A stretch of DNA of 64,000 nucleotides from Eikenella sp. GTDB taxonomy: Bacteria > Pseudomonadota > Gammaproteobacteria > Burkholderiales > Neisseriaceae. The notes below the pieces were generated by a model. The model did not search any database and had not been told where the DNA came from. It saw only the letters and a program-made list of their open reading frames with translations. This document shows positions 41,989 through 47,861 of this stretch, piece by piece. The translations under genes and the position numbers were made by a program. Every line of letters begins with the position of its first letter. Positions within the stretch are counted from its first letter, which is position 1. The stretch spans positions 1-64,000 of the forward strand of contig JAUMZB010000006.1 of the NCBI GenBank assembly GCA_030528345.1. Reading direction: 5' to 3'.

Positions 41989-42012
41989 GTCGTGACAGCA
42001 TGTAAACAGGCT

Positions 42013-42196
42013 GAGACCTTTGTCAAACCCTCAGATGTGGATGCAGTTCAAGGCGTAGCAGCGCAGCGAGCGTGAACGCCGGGAATCCCTGTGGGACAGA
42101 CATATCATGAAGATAGGCAAGCGAGCGAGCAGTACCCATAGGGCATAAACGCACAACGCAGAAATGCGCCGCAGATGGGGGTTTTGCAAAGGTCTC
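42013..42196 (+). mobile_element. 184-bp miniature inverted-repeat element, copy 1
   Basis: The ends GAGACCTTTG and CAAAGGTCTC are inverted; the full ends match for about 16 bp in copy 2, while copy 1 has one variant base run in its left end (TTTGTCAAAC). AGGCT occurs directly on both sides (42008-42012 and 42197-42201), a 5-bp target duplication. On the right, AGGCT is the start of a perfect uptake word. It carries no reading frame of note. The ends look like those of Neisseria IS5-family elements (IS1106 type, from memory), so it is probably mobilised by such a transposase. Confidence 0.85.
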
Positions 42197-42229
42197 AGGC
42201 TACCTGAAGGTTTCAGGTAGCCTGTTTTT
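42196..42229 (+). terminator. Uptake-word hairpin beyond copy 1
   Basis: CAGGCTACCTGAA and TTCAGGTAGCCTG form a 13-bp stem with a 3-nt loop, then TTTTT. It would stop tsaD transcripts that read through the element. Confidence 0.8.
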
Positions 42230-45113: not shown

Positions 45114-45148
45114 GGGTATTCTCGGTAATACAGGATTTCAGGTAGCCT

Positions 45149-45332
45149 GAGACCTTTGCAAAACCTCCAGATGTGAATGCCGTTCAAGGCGTAGCAGCAC
45201 AGCGAGTGTGAACGCCGGGAATCCCTGTGGGACGGACATATCAGATACAAGGCTAAGCGAGCGGGCAGTACCCCTAGGGCATCAACGTGCAACGCAGAAA
45301 TGCGCCGCAGATGGGAGTTTTGCAAAGGTCTC
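45149..45332 (+). mobile_element. 184-bp miniature inverted-repeat element, copy 2
   Basis: Same length and orientation as copy 1 and roughly 85 to 90% identical by eye. Its ends GAGACCTTTGCAAAAC and GTTTTGCAAAGGTCTC are a perfect 16-bp inverted repeat. AGCCT flanks both sides (45144-45148 and 45333-45337). The left flank is the end of a perfect uptake word in reverse orientation, TTCAGGTAGCCT, so the element has entered the word at the same bases as copy 1. Confidence 0.88.
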
Positions 45333-45407
45333 AGCCTACGGTGCAGGGGAAGACAGCGGCCAACCATACCAGTTTTCCCCCTGTTTTGTTAAGGCTGTTG
45401 AAACAAT

Positions 45408-47654: not shown

Positions 47655-47684
47655 CAGGCTACCTGAAAGCTTTCAGGTAGCCTG
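47655..47684. terminator. Perfect 30-bp uptake-word palindrome
   Basis: Two uptake words back to back (CAGGCTACCTGAAAG mirrored exactly) after the DUF389 gene. Copy 3 of the miniature element begins directly at its right end. Confidence 0.7.
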
Positions 47685-47861
47685 TAATCTTTACAAAGCC
47701 CCATCTGCGGCGCATTTCTACATTGTACGTTGATGTCCTAAGGATACTGCCTGCCCGCTTACCTATCGTGTGATATGTTTATCTTACAGAAATTTCCGGT
47801 AATCATGCCCGCGACACGGTTATGGCTTGAACGGCATCCGCATCCGGGAGGCCAAGCTCTC
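47684..47861 (-). mobile_element. Miniature element, copy 3 (decayed, reverse orientation)
   Basis: On the minus strand the interval follows the whole length of copies 1 and 2 with many substitutions: GATGCCGTTCAAG, GACATATCA-like, AAGCGGGCAG, then GAAATGCGCCGCAGATGGG. One end (GTAATCTTTACAAAG) directly abuts an uptake word, as in the other copies, and the other end has decayed to GAGAGCTTGG. The low identity marks it as the oldest of the three. Confidence 0.7.

Follow-up and report, generated by a model that had tools for sequence, protein, structure and literature searches.

MITEs, IS1106, and ISs that target short repeats are already known (PMC1525189, PMC3898611). The small MITEs of the Neisseriaceae include the Correia elements of Neisseria (CREE/NEMIS), which are bounded by 26-bp inverted repeats and duplicate a TA target, and mobilization of these elements by the IS1106 transposase has been suggested (PMC3898611). 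IS1106 itself was reported near REP sequences in N. meningitidis (PMC1525189). Several other ISs (ISPsy8, ISPa11, ISPpu9/10, ISRm22, and ISRm19) occupy a fixed position in an abundant short intergenic repeat, and these REP-targeting ISs hit REP palindromes in 100% of copies (PMC1525189). The genome analyzed here (G000) is a 2.13-Mb draft of a member of the Neisseriaceae, assembled in 105 contigs. Its abundant short repeat is the 12-letter uptake word AGGCTACCTGAA, of the 'eikDUS' dialect known in Eikenella corrodens and N. shayeganii (PMC3630211), with 1282 exact copies in the draft.

The window, by which we mean the whole stretch of 64,000 nucleotides analyzed, carries three copies of a 184-bp unit, each next to such a word. 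Copy 1 (42013-42196, plus strand) has the ends GAGACCTTTG...CAAAGGTCTC and no transposase, and it is flanked by the target duplication AGGCT, read from the sequence at 42008-42012 on its left and found again at 42197-42201 on its right (both plus strand). The right duplication forms bases 1-5 of an exact uptake word (42197-42208, plus strand) that is still intact after the insertion, and a facing word on the minus strand (42212-42223) completes a terminator-like hairpin. Copy 2 (45149-45332, plus strand) is 89% identical to copy 1. To its left lies the minus-strand uptake word TTCAGGTAGCCT (45137-45148), the last five bases of which are the left AGCCT duplication, and the right AGCCT follows at 45333-45337 (plus strand). 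In both copies the 184-bp unit is intact, bounded by GAGACC...GGTCTC and with AGGCT or AGCCT duplications on both sides, and copy 1 folds as a single long imperfect hairpin (z -7.3). Copy 3 (47684-47861, minus strand) is decayed and lies in reverse orientation with its ends largely lost; its core, delimited by BLAST at 47695-47844, retains ~76% identity to the unit, and it adjoins another minus-strand word TTCAGGTAGCCT (47672-47683). The initial annotation had proposed a miniature element, with ends of the IS5-family type, that inserts exactly at uptake words. Exact insertion with 5-bp duplications was confirmed for copies 1 and 2, the word beside copy 3 was found where it had been placed, and the ends together with the 5-bp duplications support the assignment as a mobile element.

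Searches of the whole draft returned 43 matches to the 184-bp unit, as well as shorter subfamilies of ~70-143 bp with the same ends. The matches and their shorter relatives were reduced to 40 distinct end-bounded copies, with a consensus element length of 184 bp. The family has the properties of a MITE: it is short and multicopy (n=40), has terminal inverted repeats and a 5-bp target-site duplication, contains no transposase gene within its 184 bp, and has autonomous counterparts with the same ends in the IS1106-type elements of other Neisseriaceae. Although it resembles the Correia elements in being a small MITE of this family, it is not one of them, since it has GAGACC ends and a 5-bp duplication in place of the 26-bp repeats and TA duplication, and Correia termini were not found.

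A perfect 5-bp duplication flanked 27 of the 40 copies, and in 21 of these 27 it was AGGCT/AGCCT. An uptake word adjoined 25 of the 40 copies (20 exact words and five with one mismatch), so that most copies lie on words and not away from them, the latter being the outcome that would have refuted the annotation. The duplication corresponds to word bases 1-5 in the word-adjoining copies, with the element in either orientation; the one exception is a copy (L046) in which two bases separate the word end from the element. No word occurs inside the element itself. With the first five bases of the word duplicated, one complete word survives at the junction. Exact words in the insertion register make up ~0.26% of intergenic positions in a background of G000 stretches totaling 460 kb, window included, and the presence of 20 of 40 copies on exact words is therefore not due to chance. 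A type 1 REP-like association, with every copy at the same repeat position, was rejected on the count of 25 of 40; in contrast to REP-targeting ISs, the MITE uses uptake words partially and in a dialect-dependent manner.

Other Neisseriaceae carry IS1106-type ISs (PF05598 + PF01609) that share the 15-bp tips of the MITE and likewise make 5-bp duplications. Their transposase falls in the IS5 family, scoring 262 bits with NF033581 (NCBIfam) against a cut-off of 140, with PF01609 and PF05598 also above cut-off. IS1106 and its relatives (IS5 family, DUF772 + DDE transposase) are like the MITE in their identical terminal GAGACCTTTGCAAAA, their 5-bp duplications, and their word-register targets in AG-dialect genomes. 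They differ in that IS1106 is ~1.2 kb long and carries a transposase whereas the MITE is 184 bp long and carries none, and the MITE interior is unlike the IS, the common sequence being confined to the terminal ~15 bases. No IS1106-type transposase was found in the draft G000 assembly, which gave no PF05598 hit and only a 31% partial match. The common tips and the equal duplication length suggest that an IS1106-type enzyme, since lost from this genome or missing from its assembly, may have cross-mobilized the MITE. The sole DDE_Tnp_1 transposase of G000 (contig C75) was considered as the parent of the MITE and rejected; it belongs to a different IS5-type element with other ends, nested in a MITE copy. 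Other ISs are likewise nested in or lie beside MITE copies at an internal CCCTAGG (L042 on C75, L050-L053, L126, and L347), and several contigs terminate at this site inside MITE copies. The ends CTAGGTGTWTAGTCCC recur in ten stretches, some of them overlapping.

The explanation that we favor, with a probability of roughly 0.7, is that the MITE is moved in trans by an IS1106-type transposase preferring a short 5-bp target that happens to begin the host word. The 184-bp unit, a MITE with long inverted ends (GAGACCTTTGCAAAACC...), 5-bp target duplications, and no transposase, would be mobilized by the IS5-family enzyme of elements that have the same 15-bp tips. This machinery would favor a near-palindromic 5-bp target, AGGCT/AGCCT here and AGGCC in Neisseria of the AG dialect. 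Where the host word begins with the target letters, most of the suitable intergenic targets would be words, and elements would accumulate there. Since it is the first five bases of the word itself that are duplicated, each insertion leaves a complete word behind, in many cases together with its hairpin. We infer that the target motif is the cause of the word association and that insertions at words are nearly neutral.

A comparison among Neisseriaceae genomes revealed that landing on words depends on the host dialect. In AG-dialect genomes, IS copies lay in register on AGGCC-GTCTGAA in 10 of 15 cases in G052, 10 of 13 in G021, two of six in G049, and one of six in G011. None lay in register on the local word in the muc-dialect G014 (0/14), the AT-dialect G027 (0/13) and G026 (0/8; its grouping is uncertain because its sample holds few words), or the eik-dialect G003 (0/5). 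Pooled, the AG-dialect samples gave 23/40 and the AT-, muc-, and eik-dialect samples 0/40 (Fisher P about 3e-9); the counts for G052, G021, G014, G027, and G003 include words with one mismatch. Across G003, G014, G021, G027, and G052, transposases from different genomes share 84-97% identity. The first letters of the host word thus predict whether elements land on words. The dialect rule is a bias because of a counter-example in G031, where an IS sits on a muc-type word (L112), and with only one of six ISs on words in the AG-dialect G011 it is not absolute. G003 uses the same word as G000, yet none of its five IS1106-type copies is in the AGGCT register. One IS1106-type copy of G003 (L142; G003:C1:734200-737200) lies inside a word with the duplication TACCT, which corresponds to word bases 5-9, a register unlike that of the MITEs.

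MITEs of related genera with sim/king-type words were often found on AGGCT-GCCTGAA, and those of the AG-dialect genomes G018/G019 and G053 were often off words. Two MITE insertions with identical flanks (L063 in G019 and L184 in G018, two related genomes) have duplicated CTGAA, the 3' end of a word of the AG type, and thus represent an orthologous insertion at the opposite end of the word. In the wad-dialect G036 (L191-L195), 143-bp MITEs occupy AT-rich 5-mers off words. A genome-collection scan for the junction returned Neisseria hosts, including N. weixii, N. dentiae, N. iguanae, N. bergeri, and others; as these results were mixed with chance matches and the organism of the window may be missing from the collection, no counts were taken from the scan.

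How much of the word is read can be gauged from the same 460-kb background. Words account for 22.5% of all AGGCT sites, and for 47-53% of intergenic AGGCT sites depending on the way of gene calling (57% if one mismatch is allowed). Since about half of the intergenic AGGCT sites are already words, a 5-bp preference combined with intergenic location explains most of the association. Perfect AGGCT/AGCCT duplications fell on exact words in 15 of 21 cases (P 0.02-0.07 against the intergenic background) and on words with at most one mismatch in 17 of 21 (P about 0.02), which suggests that the rest of the word beyond bases 1-5 may add a two- to three-fold effect at most. The proposal that the element targets uptake words consequently needs qualification: the insertions are exactly into words, but the preference is mostly for the short AGGCT/AGCCT motif that starts the word.

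This modest excess bears on an alternative in which the transposase, or a host factor that it uses, recognizes the entire uptake word and not just bases 1-5. Besides the 15/21 and 17/21 set against about 50% and 57% of intergenic sites, it can draw on the ISs of G052 and G021, whose perfect AGGCC/GGCCT duplications are words in all 14 cases where 83-86% would be expected, and on one G021 insertion at the AT variant ATGCC-GTCTGAA. However, AT and muc words have bases 6-12 in common with the AG word and were ignored in G027 and G014 (0/27), copies off words keep the same 5-bp motif, and the whole-word excess above background is small. We regard recognition of the entire word as unlikely, though it is the strongest competitor. 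We hold equally tentative the related view that this IS/MITE lineage now uses the word as its main landing site by reading past base 5, so that the elements would stay joined to the uptake sequence and the AT and muc dialects, in which the start of the word is changed, would escape.

The initial annotation had also suggested that the elements spread by riding natural transformation. Insertion could then occur anywhere, and word-adjoining copies would be enriched since transformation favors word-bearing DNA. Hosts in the Neisseriaceae do use such words for DNA uptake (PMC3630211), and an element that has inserted into a word is still bordered by an intact one. An uptake bias would, however, favor any nearby word and not one exact register, and the exact register points to an insertion preference rather than to selection for any nearby word. 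A word is present in 22% of random 500-bp fragments, 68% of 2-kb fragments, and 93% of 5-kb fragments; with words this dense in the longer fragments, any advantage in uptake could apply only to short ones. Word-adjacent copies in G000 were no closer to the consensus than the others (median 0.916 vs 0.935, P 0.66), and a greater youth of these copies, as judged by distance to consensus, was not supported. Moreover, the AT and muc dialects, which are also used for uptake, do not have the association. Spread by transformation received no positive support here; enrichment by uptake is, in our assessment, very improbable.

Still less probable is a preference for the terminator hairpin that paired words form, analogous to the use of REP hairpins by some ISs. 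Several copies, copy 1 among them, do lie at the foot of a word pair, and the location of IS1106 near REP sequences noted above fits such a preference, but a facing word was present in only seven of 19 word insertions, against a background of 41% of all words.

The congener G003 contains no copy of this MITE. The gene to the right of copy 1 has an ortholog in G003 (L221), and the same word pair is present at the 3' end of that ortholog with no MITE. For a second copy (C30:7453), homology extends as far as the word into which the MITE inserted, and there G003 (L380) again shows the word alone. Because the words occur in G003 at these two sites and the element does not, those words are older than the insertions; G003 is the sole congener compared, the comparison is limited by intergenic DNA that is scarcely alignable and often rearranged, and the two loci are clear as half-sites, with the other flank not syntenic. 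That words appeared only after insertion, for instance carried or made by the element, is contradicted at both sites and has a negligible probability.

What is new here is the dialect-dependent landing preference of an IS and its MITEs for uptake words. No earlier report of uptake words as an IS or MITE target, or of dialect dependence, was found in a literature search that covered few subscription journals, and no mention of uptake words as an IS1106 target was found in the published work searched. Uptake words, of which each genome has >1000, gate gene exchange in the Neisseriaceae. If the preference holds across a widespread IS family and the associated MITEs, then the first letters of the word would set both the DNA that is taken up and the sites at which transposons land. 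Landing would be largely outside genes and would not destroy the word, giving mobile elements a low-damage niche. It would also raise the question of whether dialects changed partly under the load of transposons.
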